A stretch of DNA of 64,000 nt, taken from Paludibacteraceae bacterium (GTDB lineage Bacteria > Bacteroidota > Bacteroidia > Bacteroidales > Paludibacteraceae). Below are positions 32,828 through 41,905 of the stretch, piece by piece. The DNA lies in contig JAFXPK010000030.1 of assembly GCA_017527905.1 (NCBI GenBank), forward strand, positions 124,001-188,000, written 5' to 3'. The position numbers were made by a program, and so were the translations under genes. How positions within the stretch are numbered: position 1 is the first letter of the stretch; each line of letters opens with the position of its first letter. The notes under the pieces were generated by a model. The model saw nothing but the letters and a program-made list of their open reading frames with translations, made no database searches and had not been told where the DNA came from.

Positions 32828-32862
32828 GTAGGGGCGAAAAATTTTTCGCCCCTATATTTTTT
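32828..32862. repeat. GTAGGGGCGAAA palindromic repeat
   Basis: GTAGGGGCGAAAA (32828-32840) pairs with the following ATTTTTCGCCCCTAT, then a T-run. Same family as 31050-31114, and probably the transporter's terminator. Confidence 0.85.
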
Positions 32863-33022
32863 CTCCAATATTACAGTACTCCCCATTTCTTGACAACTTG
32901 GTTAATACTTTTTCTCTTCCCATCGTTTTTAGATTTTTATAAATTTACATTTTTATCTGTACCTTTATCGTTATCTAAATTTTTGGGAGCATTATAAATA
33001 GTAAAGTCATAATTGAATTGTC

Positions 33023-33775
33023 ATGAAAAATTTTGTTTTTGGATTCTTGCTTTTTATAGTAGTTTTTGAGTGCAATGCAACCGGAACTTATAAAACTCAT
33101 AAACAGTGTATGCAAGGTATGTGGCTTCGGGAAAGCATGAACCAAATGGATTTTAAAATAATAAAAGGGAATACTTCTTTAAATTGTCATTTTGGACTCT
33201 ATGAATTTGATGATGATCCTGTTTATTATTATACTATTGTAGGTTTCGCTGATTCTAGTAAAGTTGATACGACTTCTTATACAGCGACTATATCCACAGT
33301 AGAGTTTCTTGAAGCAGAAAACGGATATAGGTTTGAAATAGATTCGGATGTTAAGGAAGATGAATTTTTGAAAACGCAGAATGAGTGTCGTTATGCAAGA
33401 AAATGGTATGAAGACTCATATTGTGATGAGTATGTGTTTTGGTTTTCTATTACAGAAGATGGTTATTTTAGAGTTGATAATTTTCCCCCATATTTTATGA
33501 ATTATATATGTGTTCATCATGAAGATGATTTGAAATATTTTTTCAATTTAAGTAGAAAAGATTTTAAGTTAGGTGTAGTTTGTATGGATAGTACTATCGT
33601 ATATGATGAAAACAAGAAGGAGACTGAACGAAAATTAAAGTATGGTGAGATTGTAACTGTTTTAGGAAAGTCCAAAGATTTTATTAAGTTTAAACTTGAA
33701 CGATTAGCGGATGATCCAGTTGTTGGTTATATCAAGAAAGAGAATCTTGATTTAAATTGGTATAAATCAAAGTAA
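33023..33775 (+). CDS. exported array protein 1 (QGxW/GYIKK family)
   Basis: The first of five paralogues; 250 residues with a signal peptide to about residue 20. The mature part starts CMQGMWLRE, contains a CVHHEDDLKYFFNL segment that recurs in copy 2 as AYRKDDLKYFD, and ends VVGYIKKENLDLNW in a likely SH3-like fold. Several cysteines fit an oxidising compartment. I recognise no known family. Base composition is far more AT-rich than in core genes, suggesting transfer. A TACCTTTA box near 32960 may serve the array. A short frame, then copy 2, follows 62 bases after its stop. Confidence 0.75.
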   Translation: MKNFVFGFLLFIVVFECNATGTYKTHKQCMQGMWLRESMNQMDFKIIKGNTSLNCHFGLYEFDDDPVYYYTIVGFADSSKVDTTSYTATISTVEFLEAENGYRFEIDSDVKEDEFLKTQNECRYARKWYEDSYCDEYVFWFSITEDGYFRVDNFPPYFMNYICVHHEDDLKYFFNLSRKDFKLGVVCMDSTIVYDENKKETERKLKYGEIVTVLGKSKDFIKFKLERLADDPVVGYIKKENLDLNWYKSK

Positions 33776-33781
33776 TTTTGT

Positions 33782-33826
33782 ATGACGAAGATAAACTATA
33801 AGGTAATTAAAAATTGGTTTAAATAA
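33782..33826 (+). other. short ORF remnant before array gene 2
   Basis: A 14-codon frame ending KVIKNWFK, which stops 11 bases before the next ATG. Its end resembles that of the remnant before gene 3 (AVKNVLIK). Possibly the end of a decayed gene; chance is also possible at this length. Confidence 0.2.
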
Positions 33827-33837
33827 TAAGTTTTAAA

Positions 33838-34554
33838 ATGAGGTTGAATTTTTTTATTTTATATATGTTGTTATTCTTCCTAAATGTAGAATCAAGTACG
33901 GCAACTGATTTAGACTGTATTCAAGGAGTTTGGGAAATAAGAAATGATGAAAATTCTTATCAATCAGAGTATATAGTATATAAAGACCATACTGGTTTGT
34001 CTATTATTCTAGATTCAGCAGGAATCGTGTCCCTTATTTCATATTCTACTGTTGGCTTTTTCGATACTGACGATCTTAATCAAGATGTTGATGAGAAATC
34101 TTTATTAGAGTCTAACACTGGAGATATGTTTGAGTATCTCGATACGTTGAAACAGGAATCATTATCCTTTAACACAAAATTAAATGATCCTTTATTTTAT
34201 AGAGTAGAGTGTTCATTTTGTTCAAGTGAAGTATTGGTTAGTGGATGCCAACCTACAGCTTTCTATAGGAAAAGGGTAAAGCTGCCTTCTCCTATAATCA
34301 ATTATCTAATTGCTTATAGGAAAGATGATTTGAAATATTTTGATATAGAATATGAAGATCATGACGTTTGTTCGGTCCTACCAGAGAAAATTATTTATGA
34401 TTTGAATTTTAAGCCTGTTTCTGGCTTTGATACAAGTAATGTCTTGCTTTCTATCATTGGTAAAAAAGGGAGTTTTTATAAGTTTGAATATGAATCTTTA
34501 GATGGAAAAAAAATGATTGGTTATGTTAAAAAGAAGGATGTAGAAATAAAATAG
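33838..34554 (+). CDS. exported array protein 2 (QGxW/GYIKK family)
   Basis: A 238-residue paralogue. It has a signal peptide, a mature start DLDCIQGVWEIR, a middle section with SFCSSEVLVSGC (two cysteines eight apart), AYRKDDLKYFD and an end MIGYVKKKDVEIK. Conservation with its neighbours is limited to these blocks, so the copies are old or fast-evolving. The first motif resembles the opening strand of lipocalin-like barrels (L-x-G-x-W). Function unknown. Confidence 0.75.
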   Translation: MRLNFFILYMLLFFLNVESSTATDLDCIQGVWEIRNDENSYQSEYIVYKDHTGLSIILDSAGIVSLISYSTVGFFDTDDLNQDVDEKSLLESNTGDMFEYLDTLKQESLSFNTKLNDPLFYRVECSFCSSEVLVSGCQPTAFYRKRVKLPSPIINYLIAYRKDDLKYFDIEYEDHDVCSVLPEKIIYDLNFKPVSGFDTSNVLLSIIGKKGSFYKFEYESLDGKKMIGYVKKKDVEIK

Positions 34555-34628
34555 TGTAATGATTATGCGAATGACATAACTGATGGTCAAATAGAAAGGA
34601 TCCGAATTTCTCAGATGAGACCATAAAA

Positions 34629-34733
34629 ATGGTTGGAGGTGCTGTGAATAGAGGAGGAATTAAAAATGACCCCTTTGAGGGAACAGACAGAAAAAAGAAA
34701 ACAGAAGCTGTAAAAAATGTTTTAATTAAATAG
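34629..34733 (+). other. short ORF remnant before array gene 3
   Basis: An ATG frame of 34 residues (open without ATG from 34584). It contains ETIKMVGGAVNRGG and ends KTEAVKNVLIK, stopping 7 bases before the next ATG. It looks like the C-terminal piece of a larger, now absent protein. It has weak likeness to the frame at 35448. Confidence 0.35.
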
Positions 34734-34740
34734 TTTAGCA

Positions 34741-35454
34741 ATGAATAGGTTTGTAATTTATATTTTACTTTTTCTCCCTACGGGATGTCTATTTGCACAG
34801 AAGATGAATTCAAGGGATAAATTACAGGGAGTATGGGAAATTACCTCTATTAGAGCATTTGATTATCAAGATAGTCATTCTTATGAGTACGAAGTTTATA
34901 GAAATAACGATATACTATATTTACATTTTGAATCAGACACGTTGGATGGGTATTATTCATCAAAATTCGGTTTTAGTCCCAAAGATTTAAAAGGTATTGA
35001 TTCCGTACCATTGGATTCATTGTCAGATTATGATGGATTTGTCCTTGTTGAGTATAATGATTCTATAGTCGATTCTTTAGGTGTTATACATGGATTCGTT
35101 TTAGAATATGCTTTCAAAAACTATGATAATTATTATCGTTGCTCATCTAATATTTGTTGTTATAGAAAATCGGCTATTCCAACCCCGTATTTAGTTCTCG
35201 TTAAAGAGGTTGGAACAAAAGATGGTATTGATTATCTGAAAAAATATTTCGGAACAAGCTTGTTAAAAGTTTCGGTGCAAAAGGCAGCTGTTTTTGATAA
35301 TTCTTTTCATCAAACAAAAAGTTTTTTTTATAAAAATGATGTTGTTGAATTGGTAAAAGAGGAGGGGCAATTCTTTAAAATTTTTTATCGTTCTAAAGAC
35401 GACCATATTGTTGAGGGCTTTATAAAGAAAAATAATGTTTATACGAAATGGTAG
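34741..35454 (+). CDS. exported array protein 3 (QGxW/GYIKK family)
   Basis: A 237-residue paralogue with a signal peptide ending CLFA near residue 19. The mature part carries KLQGVWEITS, then YEYEVYRNNDILYL, CSSNICC with three cysteines, a DYLKKYFG block matching the DDLKYF of copies 1 and 2, and an end VEGFIKKNNVYTKW. A potential lipobox is spoiled by a Pro, so a soluble periplasmic or secreted protein is expected. Its stop overlaps a short frame beginning at 35448. Confidence 0.75.
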   Translation: MNRFVIYILLFLPTGCLFAQKMNSRDKLQGVWEITSIRAFDYQDSHSYEYEVYRNNDILYLHFESDTLDGYYSSKFGFSPKDLKGIDSVPLDSLSDYDGFVLVEYNDSIVDSLGVIHGFVLEYAFKNYDNYYRCSSNICCYRKSAIPTPYLVLVKEVGTKDGIDYLKKYFGTSLLKVSVQKAAVFDNSFHQTKSFFYKNDVVELVKEEGQFFKIFYRSKDDHIVEGFIKKNNVYTKW

Positions 35455-35561
35455 ATGAGGCCTTATTCAAAGATGTATTTATTAGAAGTTGTTTAGGTCT
35501 TATTAATGGTGGCAGTAATGGGGAAGACACAAGACTAGAAATGACTAAAAAAAGCATATAA
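35448..35561 (+). other. short ORF overlapping the end of array gene 3
   Basis: ATG frame of 37 residues (MVDEALFKDVFIRSCLGLI then NGG). It overlaps the upstream stop by 7 bases and ends 23 bases before array gene 4. The segment IRSCLGLINGG is similar in pattern to IKMVGGAVNRGG at 34629. Could be translated by coupling, or be a remnant. Confidence 0.35.
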
Positions 35562-35584
35562 GGAGCTAAATAAATGAGATTATT

Positions 35585-36262
35585 ATGAGAAGTAGGTTGT
35601 TGATATTATTTATTTTGTTAGCAAATTATCTATATGCGGGTGATTTGCAATGTCTTCAAGGCGTTTGGAAAGAATTCGATATGACTCCTGATAAAAGTAT
35701 GAGTTCTGTTAATGAATTGTATTTAATTGTTAAGAACAGACAAATGCTATATGTATGGGTCGAGCAAGGAAATGTTACGCATGTGCAACTAGAATATATG
35801 TGTTTTATTCCCGATGAACAACAAAATAAAAATGTCCGATATAAGGATATCAAAAATAATGAAAGTGGTGACGTTTATTTGGCGAAACATCCTTTAAATG
35901 ATACAGCTATGATTAATAGTGAATGTTATCAGGAGATGATGAGTTGCTCGGAAGAAGATCTATATGTATCATCTGCAATGTATGGAAGAGGTAATTTAAA
36001 TTTTGCATTAAAGGAATCGATATTTTATTATGATCCTGATTTTGGATATTTTGTAGATTGTGCAAGAATAAAGGTAGATAAGGCATATATATATGATTCT
36101 ACAATGCATAAAACGAATGAGTTCCTTACAAAAGAAAAAGAATGTTTTGTCATTGAATCAAATGACAAATATGTGAAAATGGAATGTAGGGGAAAAAGTG
36201 GAAAGGCAATCGTCGGTTATCTCAAAAAGGAAGATATCGCCTTCAGTATATTCATTGAATGA
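35585..36262 (+). CDS. exported array protein 4 (QGxW/GYIKK family)
   Basis: The shortest paralogue, 225 residues. Signal peptide to NYLYA (about residue 18), then GDLQCLQGVWKEF at the mature start. Two cysteines in SECYQEMMSC sit mid-protein, and the protein ends IVGYLKKEDIAFSIF. AGGAGCT lies 23 bases upstream of the ATG. The DLKYF block is not obvious here, so this copy is the most diverged. Function unknown. Confidence 0.75.
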   Translation: MRSRLLILFILLANYLYAGDLQCLQGVWKEFDMTPDKSMSSVNELYLIVKNRQMLYVWVEQGNVTHVQLEYMCFIPDEQQNKNVRYKDIKNNESGDVYLAKHPLNDTAMINSECYQEMMSCSEEDLYVSSAMYGRGNLNFALKESIFYYDPDFGYFVDCARIKVDKAYIYDSTMHKTNEFLTKEKECFVIESNDKYVKMECRGKSGKAIVGYLKKEDIAFSIFIE

Positions 36263-36288
36263 TTTACAAAATAATTAACCAAAAAATA

Positions 36289-36440
36289 ATGACGAAAAAC
36301 TTTCAATCCTAATCATCCTTCTCCTATCGTCGTTTTAGTTGGCGATGGCGGATGTTGTATCGGTAGCGGCGAAGCAGCTGGAGAATAATTATAACAATGT
36401 GGTCAATACTAAACAAAAAGCATATCAACAATTAAAATAG
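36289..36440 (+). pseudogene. broken small exported-protein gene before array gene 5
   Basis: ATGACG followed by five A bases begins a frame that closes at once. One frame over, a signal-peptide-like stretch (KLSILIILLLSSF) runs into a TAG at 36336-36338 and then continues as LAMADVVSVAAKQLENNY and ends AYQQLK. One frameshift in the A-run and one stop would account for it. It ends 7 bases before the next ATG. Confidence 0.4.
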
Positions 36441-36447
36441 TGATAAA

Positions 36448-37143
36448 ATGGGAAAAATAAAGTTCCTTTTTGCTTTGTTTATATTTTGCATAAATTGCTC
36501 TTATGCACAATATTCATATAACGATGTCCAAGGAATTTGGATGATGGAAGAGTCTTTGTCTTCTAATGAATGTACTATTCTAAATAATAATGTTTTTTTT
36601 GTTTTTTATAAGAATCATTATTTGATTATACCGACAACCGATAACGATTCAGTTACTTTATTCAGAGAAGTTAAGGTTGCGGAATATGGCTTTAGTGATG
36701 ATTGTAATTCGCCAGATAGTATATCAAGCGAAGGAAGATTCCTTGTCAAAATAACGAATTCACCTAATGGCAAAGTCTTTTATGATGCATGGTGCTATTT
36801 CTTTGTCAATAAAAAGAAAATATTACATTATAGTGGTGCGGGATTTATATATCTTGAAAAATTACCAATTAAGGCCCAAAATAAATTATTTATGCAAAGT
36901 ATAAATGATCATCACAATTATGCCCGTGAATTTCTAGAATATGATCTTTGTTGTGTGAAAAAAGATAATTGTCATTTGCTAGATAATCAAGGGAAGAAGA
37001 CGGATATAATCGTACCCAAATTGTGTGTTGTAATTGTTCGCAACGTTTCAGGCAGTTTACTCAAGGTGGAATACGAAGACTCTCCTGGACATGTAGTCTA
37101 TGGCTATATTAAGAAAAAAGATTTAATATTTGTCGATGAATAG
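36448..37143 (+). CDS. exported array protein 5 (QGxW/GYIKK family)
   Basis: A 231-residue paralogue and the last of the array. Signal peptide to CSYA (about residue 20), then DVQGIWMMEE, a central CYFFVNKKK stretch, paired cysteines in DLCCVKKDNCH, and an end VYGYIKKKDLIFVDE. Its 3' end faces the convergent gene at 37184 across only 40 bases. Function unknown. Confidence 0.75.
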   Translation: MGKIKFLFALFIFCINCSYAQYSYNDVQGIWMMEESLSSNECTILNNNVFFVFYKNHYLIIPTTDNDSVTLFREVKVAEYGFSDDCNSPDSISSEGRFLVKITNSPNGKVFYDAWCYFFVNKKKILHYSGAGFIYLEKLPIKAQNKLFMQSINDHHNYAREFLEYDLCCVKKDNCHLLDNQGKKTDIIVPKLCVVIVRNVSGSLLKVEYEDSPGHVVYGYIKKKDLIFVDE

Positions 37144-37183
37144 GCGTTTGGTTGCGGTGACTTCCTAGTACTGAACACCTCCG

Positions 37184-37771
37184 TTATTCGGACCCTCTGT
37201 TTTCCTTCTTCTTCTTTGAAAAATCTTGCAGGAACCTTTCCACTTTTTTCCATTGAATATCCTTCTCGATTATATAATCCAATTCACGTAGGTATTTTTT
37301 CCCTTGGATGATAGATTGCAGGTATTGGTGAACAGGCTCTGGATCATACACTTGCCAATATACGTCCAACATTCCGTCGAAAGTCTCCCTGGCTAAGAAA
37401 AGTGCATTGGGATGTTTCGGATCGCCCTTAATGACTGAATCAAGTTGGGTAACCCAATTGACTACAAGATTATACTCCTCTTGCGATGGCATGCCATTGT
37501 TAGCCAAATCTTTGTATTCAATCGTAAGAGAACATGTCCATCCGAACACATCCCTATCCTTGAAATCACGCAAACTGGTGTTAACAACGGCAACCGCAGG
37601 TTTATTATCCTCGGACATGCTTTCCACAACAGAAAAAACTTCTTCAGGAATTGCGACACTGACATTTTCCCGTTCCACATATGACGGTTCCGTGCTCTTT
37701 GCCGCATAACCGTTGGAAAAGCCTGCGAACAACAGAAAAGAAGCAATTGCTATGACCAATACATTTTTCAT
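37184..37771 (-). CDS. exported DUF695-like domain protein
   Basis: A 195-residue protein with signal peptide to about residue 23 (NGYAA). The mature part reads FGWTCSLTIEYKD, NGMPSQEEYNLV, ALFLARETFDGMLDVYWQV and a final EKDIQWKKVERFL. That series (Gly-x-Pro...Glu, a strand with xR.T..G, then a D-x-W near the end) is like DUF695. DUF695 proteins have no agreed function. It is convergent with the array and codirectional with the two genes on its right. Confidence 0.65.
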   Translation of the reverse strand: MKNVLVIAIASFLLFAGFSNGYAAKSTEPSYVERENVSVAIPEEVFSVVESMSEDNKPAVAVVNTSLRDFKDRDVFGWTCSLTIEYKDLANNGMPSQEEYNLVVNWVTQLDSVIKGDPKHPNALFLARETFDGMLDVYWQVYDPEPVHQYLQSIIQGKKYLRELDYIIEKDIQWKKVERFLQDFSKKKKENRGSE

Positions 37772-37843
37772 CTCTCCGAATCTTATATTAATTATTTAAT
37801 ATTCAATATCTTGCAAAATAATTTACTGATTCAATCCCGTTCA

Positions 37844-38419
37844 TTATTCTTCTATTCCCCACACAACAGCGGCCATAGAATCCACATATCTATCATACTC
37901 TTTATCTTCATATAATATGTGTTTTTTCACGCTGTGATCGTTATATTCAAGAAGTTGGAAGTCGCTTTCCCATATTAGCTTTTTCCCTTCCTTTTCGATT
38001 GACAATACGCCAAAATCTTTATTTAAGATATCATCTCTCTTCCCATCTGTTATACCTTTAAGGCCCAATAGTTTTATTTTTCCCGGACTGATAGACTTAG
38101 AATAAAACAGATAGGAAGTGGAAGGAGTTGAATCTGCGACCCATTGGAATTGAAAGATAATACTGTCTTTATTAATGGTTAACGAATAGGTGGGATTATC
38201 ATCATACAATTCGTCCGTAAGATCCCCTTGCCCGTAATAGACTCCCTCCCAATTATACTGGTTATCAAATTCCAACACATAAGGAGCTGAACGATCTGAA
38301 GCTTCGGGGTTTTTAGAAATTGGCTTGGATTGGCCGCTATTGTTCATAACCCAAAGAGACAAAAGAACAACTACACAGGTTGTTAGATATTTGTTTGAAT
38401 TAGATTGTTTTTCCTTCAT
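37844..38419 (-). CDS. exported small protein, unknown (lipocalin-like style)
   Basis: A 191-residue protein with one N-terminal hydrophobic segment (residues 11-27), a signal or anchor. The mature part has YNWEGVYYGQGDL, TYSLTINKDSIIFQFQW and a C-terminal stretch with LLEYNDHSVKKHI. The W-x-G-x-Y strand start resembles lipocalin-like or DUF5991-type proteins, but I would not name it. It lies between the DUF695-like gene and the large HEXXH protein, on the same strand, with gaps of 72 and 39 bases. Confidence 0.65.
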   Translation of the reverse strand: MKEKQSNSNKYLTTCVVVLLSLWVMNNSGQSKPISKNPEASDRSAPYVLEFDNQYNWEGVYYGQGDLTDELYDDNPTYSLTINKDSIIFQFQWVADSTPSTSYLFYSKSISPGKIKLLGLKGITDGKRDDILNKDFGVLSIEKEGKKLIWESDFQLLEYNDHSVKKHILYEDKEYDRYVDSMAAVVWGIEE

Positions 38420-38458: not shown

Positions 38459-41400
38459 TCACCGAACGATCTTTTGTCCGTTCACCACATACACGCCCGA
38501 CTGGATCGGCTTCACGACACGCATACCGGCCTGCATATAGAACTGGTCCACCAACAGACCACGCATATCGTAAACCGTCACCCATTGCGCCTTGCCCACC
38601 GTCTCGAAGCAGAAGCCCTCCTCCTCATTGTAGACAAGCAGAGAAGTGGTCTCGTTCCGCAGTTCATCCACAGCCGTCAAATCACCCGCCAATGCCTTCA
38701 CTTCGGCCTTGGAAAGGATGATCCACCTTTGCTGGCTCGCAGAGTTCTGGTGGTCGAATCGTGCGGCGGAAACACCGTTGTTCGCGGAGGATAAGGCCAT
38801 CGGACGGTTCGTTCCGTCGGCGAAGACCATCCAATAGGACTTCAGGTTGAAATACTGGTTCGTGACATTCTGACGGGAACCCATCAGCTGAATACCATAC
38901 TTCTCCTGCGAGCCCAAGGAGAGCCTAGAATTGGCGCAGGAGAGCGATTTATCCTCCGAAACGTTCCGAAAATCATACAACTGCGTTTCCGGCTCGAAAT
39001 GGATCTTCCAGGCGTAGGCGTTCTCCTTCAACAACGTTTTCCAATCCGTAGCCTTCACCGAAAGATTACCGTTCTCCAACCGTAAAGAGGTCGGTGTACT
39101 TGCATTCTGAGCAGCGGACAAAAGGTAATAGGTCTCGTAATCCTCCTGCGTGAACGTGTAGGCTGGGGAAGCGAAGGCACCTGACACCGGCGGAAGGTTA
39201 TCCTCGCCCAACGCTTGGATAATCAGCGCATTGGCGTAATATAGGATACGTGTGCCGTCATCCTCGTGCGCCCCATTGATACCATACGGCCAGAAGTGCG
39301 TGTTATCGCCCTTCAATTGGGCGGAGTTGTCATTCTCCAGGAAATGCAGGATTTGATCCGTACGTTCGCCTAACCAGAAGCCTTTGGTCGTCTCCTGACG
39401 GTAGACGGAGGAGTTCATCCAATTATCCGTCGTACCGACACCCGCGGCGTGGCACATCTCATGCTGGATCGTACCCGTACGCTGGTAGCTGGCGTTCGGT
39501 CCGACCCTCATCCAACCTCCATAGCTACAATCCGCGGTCTGGGTGCTCGCCCCGTACGAAACGGTCAGATGCAAGCCCCGGATGCTCGTGATGTTGTTCC
39601 AGACATCACACGCGTCCGCCACAGCTTCGTTGATACGCTTGTTTTCCTCGTCGGAGCCTCCGTTGTTGTACGACCAGGTGATGTCACCCTTCGGCAACGT
39701 GCATATCTTGATGCGCTCGCCATAGCCCACTGCGTTCGACCTCGTGATCGCATAAGGGCGGATATAATAGACCATGGAGGGGGTCAAGCCTGTCATGACA
39801 TAGATGGTTCCGTTGTTAGTGTAGGATAGGGAAGAGCGGTCGTCCAACACCGTCGGGTTGGAGGAGGTGGACCAGCAGAAGCCCCGCTCCGTGATGTTAT
39901 TGCCAGAGAACGTGGCGCGTCCGAAGGCCATCGTCGCACCCGTCGCATGACGAGGATCCGTCACGACCGTAGGGATATCCCCCGACGCATTCGCCACCTG
40001 GAACGTGAATATAGCGTCGTCGAGTCGCTTTACACACCCGTCAAGATCATCCACGCCCATCGACTCATTGCCTAAATACTTCTTCGCCTCGTCTATGGCC
40101 GCCTGCAGTTCAGCGCTACCATTCTTTCCCTCCTGATAGGTGTTCTCAGCCAAGGCTATCTCCTCCGCAAGACGCTGGAACGCCGCGGCCGACGAACCCG
40201 CCAGCTCGCTATACTGACGAAGACGTGTCGCGATGGAGGAGAGATCCTTCTCGTTCGGATTCCCCAACCACTCCTTCGCCTTGGCGACCTCACCCTCCAA
40301 TTGGGTACGGTAAGTCTTGTAGATCGTTCCACTCAACAGATTCTCAGCCACTTCCACACGTCGCTGAATCTCCACTTCGTAGTCGTCCATGCTAGCCGCA
40401 CTGTACAATAGCCTGAAATTATCTACCGACAGCCAGTTGCCGGAAGCGTTTTTAGCCACAAAACCTATTGAAAAGCTCTCCTCCATGTGGGTGAATTGTA
40501 GGGTATATTCCTTCTTTTCGGAGACTGCCACACTGTCACTGCCTGCGATGATCCATGCGCCTGTCTGGCCACTCCTTCCGTCCTGCGTGTTCTGCGCCGC
40601 CACCTTCAGCGTATAGACACCGTTGGGAGCCTCCGGACCAACTTCTTGGACAACACTCGCACTGCCCACCTTAGATCCTGCGGAAACCCATTTCTCCGCA
40701 TAGTAGTTACCTGATTTCAGCGAGAACGACGTGTTAGACTGCGTCTGCAGACCCGACACGCTCCATCCCTCGAAACCATCCTCGAAGCTTGGGTTCACGA
40801 TGAAACGGGTCATGTCTGAAGGATGATCCGAGGAGGAATTGGCCCAACCATACACCTCCAACTGATTCCTCAATGCCTCGTCCGCCTTGAAAAGGTCCGC
40901 ATAGGAAGCGCTCTCATCGTCGCACACACGCTGCACCTCGTCCATCACAGCCTTCAGATCGGCCGCACCGTTCCCCGTACCGCTACCATAGGTGGTGCTG
41001 GCGGTGGAGAGGGTAGTCCGCAGTGTGGAACGCATCCCGGCGATCAAGGTGCCATTATCACCCACTAAATAGAGTCTCACGAAATCGACCATTACCTTGG
41101 CGGAATTGGCCGAACCGTTCGCCACGCCCTTGAAACCGATCTGCACCTTTCCTTCCTTCTCCGACGAAAGGGTAAAGGTGACCTCATCCAGCGTCCAATT
41201 CATGGGGAAAGAGGAGAGGCGGGAAAGGGAAGAGGATCCGTTGTCCGGAATCCATCCCAAAAGGCTATATCCATTGGTGGAGTTGCTACCGTTGTAGAAG
41301 GCGGCCTGCAGCTTGTACGAACCCGCCGGCAAGGTGATTTTCTGATAATACTTCAAAGACTCCTCCCAGCCCGTGCTGAGCACCAGACAGCCACCCTTCG

Positions 41401-41689
41401 AGCCCTCATAGCCCGACGAAGGAACCTTTCCGTTGGTGTTGAACGTCTTGCCCGTCCCTAACTCATAGACACCCGTCACGGTATAATCCACACCGATATC
41501 CTTGTTCCAACCATAAACGGGGAGAATCTCCTGCGCCACATTCCCTTGCTCATTCGCCTTATAATCAAAGTGTTCCGAGTCGTCGAACCCATAGTTCTGC
41601 AGATATAACTCCGAGATGTCAATATCAGCCCACGCCGAAGCGCAGAAAGCCAAGGAGAACGTAATAATGGATAACAAACGTGTTTTCAT
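38459..41689 (-). CDS. large secreted HEXXH metalloprotease-like protein with T9SS-like tail
   Basis: 1076 residues. A signal peptide (to SAWA) precedes two carbohydrate-binding-like beta-sandwich domains (about 30-205 and 290-430). FIVAR-like helices follow (440-565), then a fibronectin-like section (PYAITRSNAVGYG), and a peptidase-like domain with HEMCHAAGVGT, His743 to His747 being the HEXXH. A later THFWPYGINGAHED is conserved-looking. The end (VTVYDMRG and IQSGVYVVNG) resembles a T9SS sorting domain. It probably degrades or binds surface glycoproteins. Start ATG at 41689 fits the signal peptide; a 45-residue upstream extension is rejected. Confidence 0.82.
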   Translation of the reverse strand: MKTRLLSIITFSLAFCASAWADIDISELYLQNYGFDDSEHFDYKANEQGNVAQEILPVYGWNKDIGVDYTVTGVYELGTGKTFNTNGKVPSSGYEGSKGGCLVLSTGWEESLKYYQKITLPAGSYKLQAAFYNGSNSTNGYSLLGWIPDNGSSSLSRLSSFPMNWTLDEVTFTLSSEKEGKVQIGFKGVANGSANSAKVMVDFVRLYLVGDNGTLIAGMRSTLRTTLSTASTTYGSGTGNGAADLKAVMDEVQRVCDDESASYADLFKADEALRNQLEVYGWANSSSDHPSDMTRFIVNPSFEDGFEGWSVSGLQTQSNTSFSLKSGNYYAEKWVSAGSKVGSASVVQEVGPEAPNGVYTLKVAAQNTQDGRSGQTGAWIIAGSDSVAVSEKKEYTLQFTHMEESFSIGFVAKNASGNWLSVDNFRLLYSAASMDDYEVEIQRRVEVAENLLSGTIYKTYRTQLEGEVAKAKEWLGNPNEKDLSSIATRLRQYSELAGSSAAAFQRLAEEIALAENTYQEGKNGSAELQAAIDEAKKYLGNESMGVDDLDGCVKRLDDAIFTFQVANASGDIPTVVTDPRHATGATMAFGRATFSGNNITERGFCWSTSSNPTVLDDRSSLSYTNNGTIYVMTGLTPSMVYYIRPYAITRSNAVGYGERIKICTLPKGDITWSYNNGGSDEENKRINEAVADACDVWNNITSIRGLHLTVSYGASTQTADCSYGGWMRVGPNASYQRTGTIQHEMCHAAGVGTTDNWMNSSVYRQETTKGFWLGERTDQILHFLENDNSAQLKGDNTHFWPYGINGAHEDDGTRILYYANALIIQALGEDNLPPVSGAFASPAYTFTQEDYETYYLLSAAQNASTPTSLRLENGNLSVKATDWKTLLKENAYAWKIHFEPETQLYDFRNVSEDKSLSCANSRLSLGSQEKYGIQLMGSRQNVTNQYFNLKSYWMVFADGTNRPMALSSANNGVSAARFDHQNSASQQRWIILSKAEVKALAGDLTAVDELRNETTSLLVYNEEEGFCFETVGKAQWVTVYDMRGLLVDQFYMQAGMRVVKPIQSGVYVVNGQKIVR

Positions 41690-41758
41690 GATATGTACAA
41701 TATAAAGGGCAAACGCAAGACGCATCGGCCTCGCATCTCCCCAACGTTCAGTATAGCG

Positions 41759-41766
41759 CAAATGTA
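41759..41766 (-). promoter_or_regulatory. -7 box TACATTTG for the HEXXH gene
   Basis: Complement of CAAATGTA; a perfect box about 70 bases before the ATG on the minus strand. Confidence 0.4.
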
Positions 41767-41905
41767 AAATAAAAATCCTTAAATGCCGAAGAATTCGCCG
41801 AATTTTATAGGATGGACAACCCATACCTCACCCCCTTCAACGCCAACGAAAGAATCATGTAACGCATTGAGATAGAGTAGGGTAATATCCTTTCTTGGAC
41901 TTCCC

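Follow-up and report, generated by a model that had tools for sequence, protein, structure and literature searches.

In the genome of a Paludibacteraceae bacterium (assembly GCA_017527905.1), five genes for exported proteins stand in tandem on contig JAFXPK010000030.1, and the question raised by this array is what the five proteins are for. We analysed a stretch of 64,000 nucleotides (positions 124,001 to 188,000 of the contig; hereafter the window), in which the array spans positions 33023-37143, and compared it with related genomes in a public collection, which are metagenome-assembled genomes (MAGs) of Paludibacteraceae. Genomes, contigs and loci are referred to by G, C and L numbers, G000 being the genome of the window itself. 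On sequence comparison, the array is very probably a homogeneous polyimmunity locus acquired through horizontal transfer: a set of orphan immunity genes directed against polymorphic toxins with a GH19-type peptidoglycan-hydrolase tip.

The array consists of five intact open reading frames (ORFs), all in one direction on the plus strand (Table 1). Each of the five proteins opens with a hydrophobic, signal-peptide-like stretch, which was read from the sequence without a predictor, and all five could be aligned over their full length, with 18-26% identity to the protein of gene 1. In the five-protein alignment, QG.W opens the mature part and G..KK lies close to the end, both being among the invariant columns; a DDLKYF block is common to genes 1 and 2 only. 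Because a profile built from the five proteins picks out these five and no others in the 3.27-Mb assembly, with E values of 1e-68 to 1e-98, we consider their kinship real; a broader family profile adds one distant member in the same genome (G000:C20). The GC content is ~0.30 in the array, within a stretch of ~0.50; per kb it is 0.288-0.312 in the array vs 0.50-0.53 in the left flank and 0.39-0.56 in the right flank. Thus, the original prediction, which had been made from the letters alone and described tandem, exported, AT-rich and diverged paralogues, some of them with DDLKYF, gave a correct account of the genes; by contrast, it overlooked what lies in the gaps between them. Pfam and NCBIfam contained no immunity model (Imm, SUKH) matching the five proteins at E <= 1, no SUKH domain was found, and apart from a sub-threshold SH3_3 match in gene 1 the names that these libraries returned for the five were spurious. 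Moreover, a terminator scan detected no plus-strand terminator-like site in the interior of the array, and the number of matches in a promoter scan equalled the shuffled expectation.

The likely function of the family is indicated by its neighbours in other genomes. At seven loci elsewhere, a GH19 toxin is followed directly, or in one case one gene further on, by a family member, and such loci were found from either side. In G311, which belongs to the genus of the window's genome, the toxin has a zincin, SH3-like repeats and a GH19-type C terminus, and an exported family member starts 7-8 nt downstream. With the GH19 domain of this toxin, two further loci were found: G302:C28 encodes a 1512-aa toxin with zincin and GH19 domains followed after ~4 nt by a member (immunity profile, E 5.7e-30), and in G295 a member lies one gene beyond the GH19 toxin (E 6e-6). 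From the immunity side, the family profile was run against an order-wide sample of 393 genomes; it gave three strong matches outside the genus, and each of these (G669, G539 and G666) has a GH19 toxin immediately upstream (GH19 profile, E 2e-47 to 2e-51). Similarly, the gene 3 homologue in G320 begins 7 nt after an ORF with the zincin motif HELGHG, and that in G302:C10 comes after a fragment with a GH19-like motif. The complete zincin toxins start with a signal-peptide-like stretch and adjoin three conserved partner genes.

The assignment of the toxin tips to GH19 has several sources. PDB profiles matched the effector TseP of the type VI secretion system (T6SS; 2.4e-6) and phage GH19 endolysins, and Pfam Glyco_hydro_19 matched the G295 toxin (E 8e-5). 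An RGRG.IQLT..NY-type motif and the catalytic-acid helix are kept in G311, G302:C28 and G295, with the variants GRGFIHLTG in G539 and G666 and GVGFIHLTG in G669. In a Foldseek search with a weak toxin model (predicted local distance difference test (pLDDT) 51), which we take as support only, the top four matches were TseP and phage or GH19 endolysins. In the genome of the window, searches detected neither a GH19 toxin, using the GH19 toxin domain, nor a VipB/TssC match; because no GH19 toxin is detectable there, the array genes would act, if active, as orphans.

The gaps between the array genes hold remnants of toxin genes as well as a remnant of a toxin-locus accessory gene. Immediately before gene 3 lie the last 44 residues and the stop codon of a GH19-toxin gene, the upstream remainder of which is missing; this tail is 91% identical to residues 440-483, the intact end, of the G320 toxin (L024:9091-10542) and 57% identical to the toxin end in L026 (G302:C10). 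A tail profile built without window or G320 sequences was run on the complete set of 2242 stop-to-stop peptides from the window. It scored highest on the one before gene 3 (E 8.5e-9); the second and last match above noise was a frameshifted peptide ahead of gene 4 (E 0.0025), and the peptide ranked third had E 3.2. Before gene 5, a probable third tail was recognized by a 29-nt repeat with 72% identity to the tail before gene 4, and it is weak because it is short. Before gene 2, the evidence is also weak: an end comparable to the possible tail there, ..SYKVIKVWFE*, precedes the gene 2 homologue in G328. The gap between genes 4 and 5 additionally contains the start of the accessory gene, which a frameshift and an in-frame TAG have disrupted. 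This remnant was first read as the N terminus of a toxin backbone, a reading rejected when intact toxin loci (G311, G323 and G317) showed homologues of a separate accessory gene standing behind the immunity gene.

Table 1. Positions of the array genes, toxin-locus remnants and island borders in the window
Feature	Position	Strand	Basis or remark
Inserted island as a whole, 4.3 kb	32862..37199	.	Sister-genome junctions
Terminator-like hairpin of upstream transporter, left island edge	32828..32855	+	
Gene 1, exported family member, 250 aa	33023..33775	+	ORF; 83% aa identity to G320:C174
Toxin tail before gene 2, possible (weak), ..NYKVIKNWFK*	33780..33830	+	
Gene 2, exported family member, 238 aa	33838..34554	+	ORF; structure model; 51% identity to G328 member (genus g27)
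Toxin tail, last 44 residues of GH19-toxin gene and stop codon	34584..34733	+	7 nt before gene 3
Gene 3, exported family member, 237 aa	34741..35454	+	ORF; adjoins its toxin's tail
Second toxin tail, frameshifted, reads ..GLINGGSNGEDTRLEMTKK..	35452..35578	+	Between genes 3 and 4
Gene 4, exported family member, 225 aa	35585..36262	+	ORF; homologues in G320, G323
Remnant, start of ~1118-aa accessory gene	36277..36406	+	91% nt identity to L025:9330-9460
Third toxin tail, probable, ..TKQKAYQQLK*	36407..36439	+	Just before gene 5
Gene 5, exported family member, 231 aa	36448..37143	+	ORF; 96% identity to G320:C46

The array is absent from the same site in G311, G313, G315, G319 and G323, sister genomes in which the flanking genes are 91-97% identical. 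G313 joins position 32861 to 37206 and G319 joins 32872 to 37200, with ~16-22 nt between, and in G311 and G323 the flanking genes are separated by just ~380 bp. Array genes were found at high nucleotide identity in G320, a distant congener (gene 1, 89%; gene 3, 98%; gene 4, 96%; gene 5, 98%); by contrast, the G320 copy of the flanking 1121-aa gene is just 67-72% identical. Since these homologues of genes 1, 3, 4 and 5 are spread over three G320 contigs, we conclude that the genes travel between lineages as separate modules. Gene 3 is 95-98% identical in G320 and G323 and 59% identical in G302, and stands behind toxin tails in G320 and G302; gene 4 is 93-96% identical in G320 and G323, where its order with gene 3 is kept; and gene 5 has 40% identity to the immunity protein directly behind the GH19 toxin of G669, a genome from another Bacteroidales family (tree support 99/98). 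The nearest relative of every window gene in the tree belongs to another genome, and we therefore regard the array as assembled rather than as the product of recent duplication, in line with the divergence described in the original prediction. The horizontal gain proposed there is likewise borne out at the level of sequence, by the empty sites together with the discordant identity. It had also been stated there that single, vertically inherited core homologues of normal composition would speak against the array; instead, family matches occur in only 10 of 358 genomes of the same family and in 3 of 33 genera. No relative of the array genes was found in viral contigs or plasmids, and an origin from a virus or plasmid was rejected on this ground.

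A model of gene 2 (pLDDT 80, from a 24-row alignment) has a barrel at residues 17-150, the best matches of which are the Bacteroides lipocalin-like proteins 4qrl and 2m4l (Z 7.7-7.8 over 91-95 residues, under the level that the comparison tool calls safe), and a tail at residues 172-238 that matches SH3 domains of peptidoglycan hydrolases (LytB, Z 7.8 over 59 residues); Z values of 7-8 are moderate. Lipocalin barrels have GxW at the first strand, and QGxW is present in the window proteins. Foldseek with the whole two-domain model returned mainly sliding clamps at a template modelling (TM) score of ~0.15, which is noise. For the tail, Pfam SH3_3 on gene 1 (E 0.0019; its 18.8 bits fall short of the cut-off of 27), PDB profiles for an SH3-type tail (E 0.003-0.014) and the fold comparison agree, none being decisive alone. 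Thus, the lipocalin-like opening and SH3-like tail of the original prediction reappear in the gene 2 model at moderate scores.

Comparison with the G320 copies showed that pN/pS is low in gene 1, most of all in the conserved SH3 part (0.08, p 9e-5), and that the amino-acid changes of this gene cluster in residues 95-162 (pN/pS 0.67). Amino-acid changes were also rarer than silent ones in genes 4 and 5 (p 0.001 and p 0.02, respectively). The G323 and G320 copies of gene 3 differ by 12 amino-acid and 0 silent changes (Fisher p 0.14), and positive selection on this gene is not claimed. These patterns suggest that the tail is conserved and the barrel variable, as would fit a specificity set in the barrel.

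We propose that at a polymorphic-toxin locus the toxin tips were replaced repeatedly, so that each old immunity gene would have retained the final codons of the toxin it once accompanied, and that the leftover cluster was then handed on and kept for protection against non-kin. Once exported, the products would neutralize toxin domains of the GH19 type (lysozyme/chitinase-like) that competing Bacteroidales deliver. In the periplasm, each lipocalin-like barrel would bind the catalytic domain of its own toxin variant, specificity being determined by variable residues (~95-162 in gene 1), and the conserved SH3-like tail would contact peptidoglycan or a common toxin surface.

Several observations weigh against this proposal. 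For genes 1 and 2, family membership is the only tie to GH19 toxins, and at the locus of the gene 1 homologue in G320:C174 the visible toxin is an M23 peptidase with a candidate immunity gene of its own. In the stretches read of G315, G316, genus g27, G550, G514 and G000:C20, no toxin adjoins the family member. The immunity proteins of G311 and G302:C28 are distant from those of the window and were recovered only in the second profile round. Moreover, the lipocalin and SH3 matches are only moderate (Z 7-8), purifying selection on gene 3 did not reach significance, and the assembly of the window's genome is 97% complete in 53 contigs, from which a toxin could be missing.

The members without a toxin alongside would also suit general lysozyme inhibitors, acting in the manner of MliC, PliC or PliI against lysozymes of an animal host, for which presence in toxin loci would be secondary; the proteins are exported with a lipocalin-like barrel, and animal guts are the source of genomes from this bacterial family (MAGs from horse faeces). 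We consider this improbable, given that members stand directly behind GH19 toxins in unrelated families and that toxin tails lie within the array; moreover, a spread as patchy as 10 of 358 genomes is ill-suited to a constant host threat. Lipocalin-like barrels often bind small ligands, and the clustering of amino-acid changes in residues 95-162 of gene 1 could likewise be read as diversifying selection on surface ligand or carbohydrate binders, the second guess of the original prediction. These changes do not exceed the silent rate, however, and positive selection on gene 1 is therefore not shown; as ligand binding would in addition leave the toxin linkage and the toxin tails unexplained, this idea is not needed and is the least credible of those considered.

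The same tails, together with the shredded accessory gene, the sister genomes lacking the island and the selection result for gene 3, could indicate a toxin-locus leftover in decay with no present role. Yet the five ORFs have all stayed intact although the whole of the sequence in the gaps is broken, amino-acid changes relative to G320 are rarer than silent ones in genes 1, 4 and 5, and no plus-strand terminator-like site interrupts the array; decay is thus an improbable account, about on a par with host-lysozyme inhibition. A polyimmunity locus, by comparison, is recognized by at least four tandem one-strand paralogues, of which the array has five under one profile; by family members that are candidate cognate genes next to toxins elsewhere, as in G311, G302:C28, G295, G669, G539 and G666; by the lack of a complete toxin, the gaps here holding only tails; and by a content that varies among close strains, as it does here. 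In total, the periplasmic immunity against secreted effectors raised in the original prediction is supported by the GH19-toxin linkage elsewhere and by the toxin tails in the array.

The statement in the same prediction that no such system had been described was too strong. Homogeneous polyimmunity loci are toxin-free, strain-variable, one-strand tandems of distant immunity paralogues, proposed as a back-up against non-kin toxins, and have been listed for SUKH, Imm6, Imm11, Imm28, Imm33, Imm36 and Imm41 (Zhang et al. 2012, PMC3482391). The array shares with them its tandem one-strand paralogues, the lack of a toxin and the differences between close strains; unlike them, its family is exported, would face a peptidoglycan hydrolase, has no Pfam or NCBIfam immunity model and has toxin tails between the genes. 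Orphan immunity genes in gut Bacteroidales have been shown to protect against T6SS (PMC12247911). Like the rAID and acquired interbacterial defence clusters (PMC12247911, PMC10470768), the array consists of horizontally gained Bacteroidales orphan immunity genes diverged from their cognates; it differs in being linked to zincin-type polymorphic toxins with a Sec signal, not to T6SS effectors, and in that no SUKH domain was found. Nor does a recombinase ORF, a criterion for rAID clusters, lie in or beside the island, where the plausible genes are the five array genes, the transporter, a DUF695 gene, a gene for a 191-aa exported protein and that for the 1121-aa protein.

In Xanthomonas, the GH19 effector X-Tfe-XAC2609 is inhibited by the periplasmic immunity protein X-Tfi-XAC2610 (PMC10933484), which likewise pairs a GH19 peptidoglycan-hydrolase toxin with an exported immunity protein; X-Tfi-XAC2610 is described as a beta-propeller-like lipoprotein, in contrast to the five arrayed proteins with a lipocalin-like barrel and an SH3-like tail. 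MliC and PliC (PMC2267010) would resemble the window proteins in mode of working only, as exported inhibitors of a wall-cutting glycosidase; they are encoded by single genes and act against animal lysozyme, and the window proteins have no Pfam or NCBIfam match to that family. Polyimmunity loci are thus already known; an exported anti-GH19 family with toxin tails between its genes appears to be undescribed as far as we searched.

Next to the island, the DUF695 gene and the gene for the 191-aa exported protein (37184-38419) are absent in G311 and G323 and present in G313 and G315, and the site is therefore generally variable. The 1121-aa secreted protein that follows (38459-41824) has a zinc-binding-like motif, HEMCHAAG, and a sub-threshold sorting tail of the type IX secretion system. 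Distant family members of genus g27 (L030:8930-13308 and L031:5594-10000) adjoin a homologue of this protein, by shared neighbourhood or coincidence.

Further toxin loci were noted in the related genomes. The loci of G323, G320 and G311 (L055, L058, L051 and L056) contain a recurring set of four genes, encoding a barrel-like protein of ~480-580 aa, a zincin toxin with signal peptide of ~1300-1500 aa and proteins of ~950-1120 aa and ~700 aa; this set may serve to export or display polymorphic toxins, as a system not yet described. L024:910-9057 (G320:C57) contains neighbouring cassettes with Rhs-core remnants and NlpC/CHAP-type amidase-like C termini, each followed by an exported or lipoprotein-like gene; the entire island probably consists of toxin tips directed at the wall, together with immunity genes. 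In other Paludibacteraceae genera (L077-L083), large PAAR-like proteins stand behind VgrG-like genes, several of them with GH19 matches; downstream lies a different, lipoprotein-like family of 420-530 aa, possibly for immunity. Behind GH19 proteins in this setting stand other gene families and not the one described here, so the array family lacks the linkage expected of T6SS immunity, a cognate effector carried by VgrG/PAAR-type genes. The genome of the window has a zincin polymorphic toxin of another type (L035:13102-16248, G000:C26), which is cut by the contig end and has a second zincin-like motif near the C terminus and a short downstream ORF.

These observations assign a likely function to a family without a Pfam or NCBIfam model, connect it with GH19 as a defined enzyme class, and name candidate toxin-immunity pairs in G539, G669 and G302:C28. 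We lean, with some reserve, towards an undescribed family of exported GH19 inhibitors, each with a lipocalin-like barrel and an SH3-like tail, kept in periplasmic banks the fossil order of which would record the weapons met. Periplasmic banks of this kind, directed at wall-cutting toxins, have been documented less than cytoplasmic SUKH-type banks. With the last toxin codons still beside the immunity genes, the array would represent a readable intermediate in the formation of an orphan-immunity bank.

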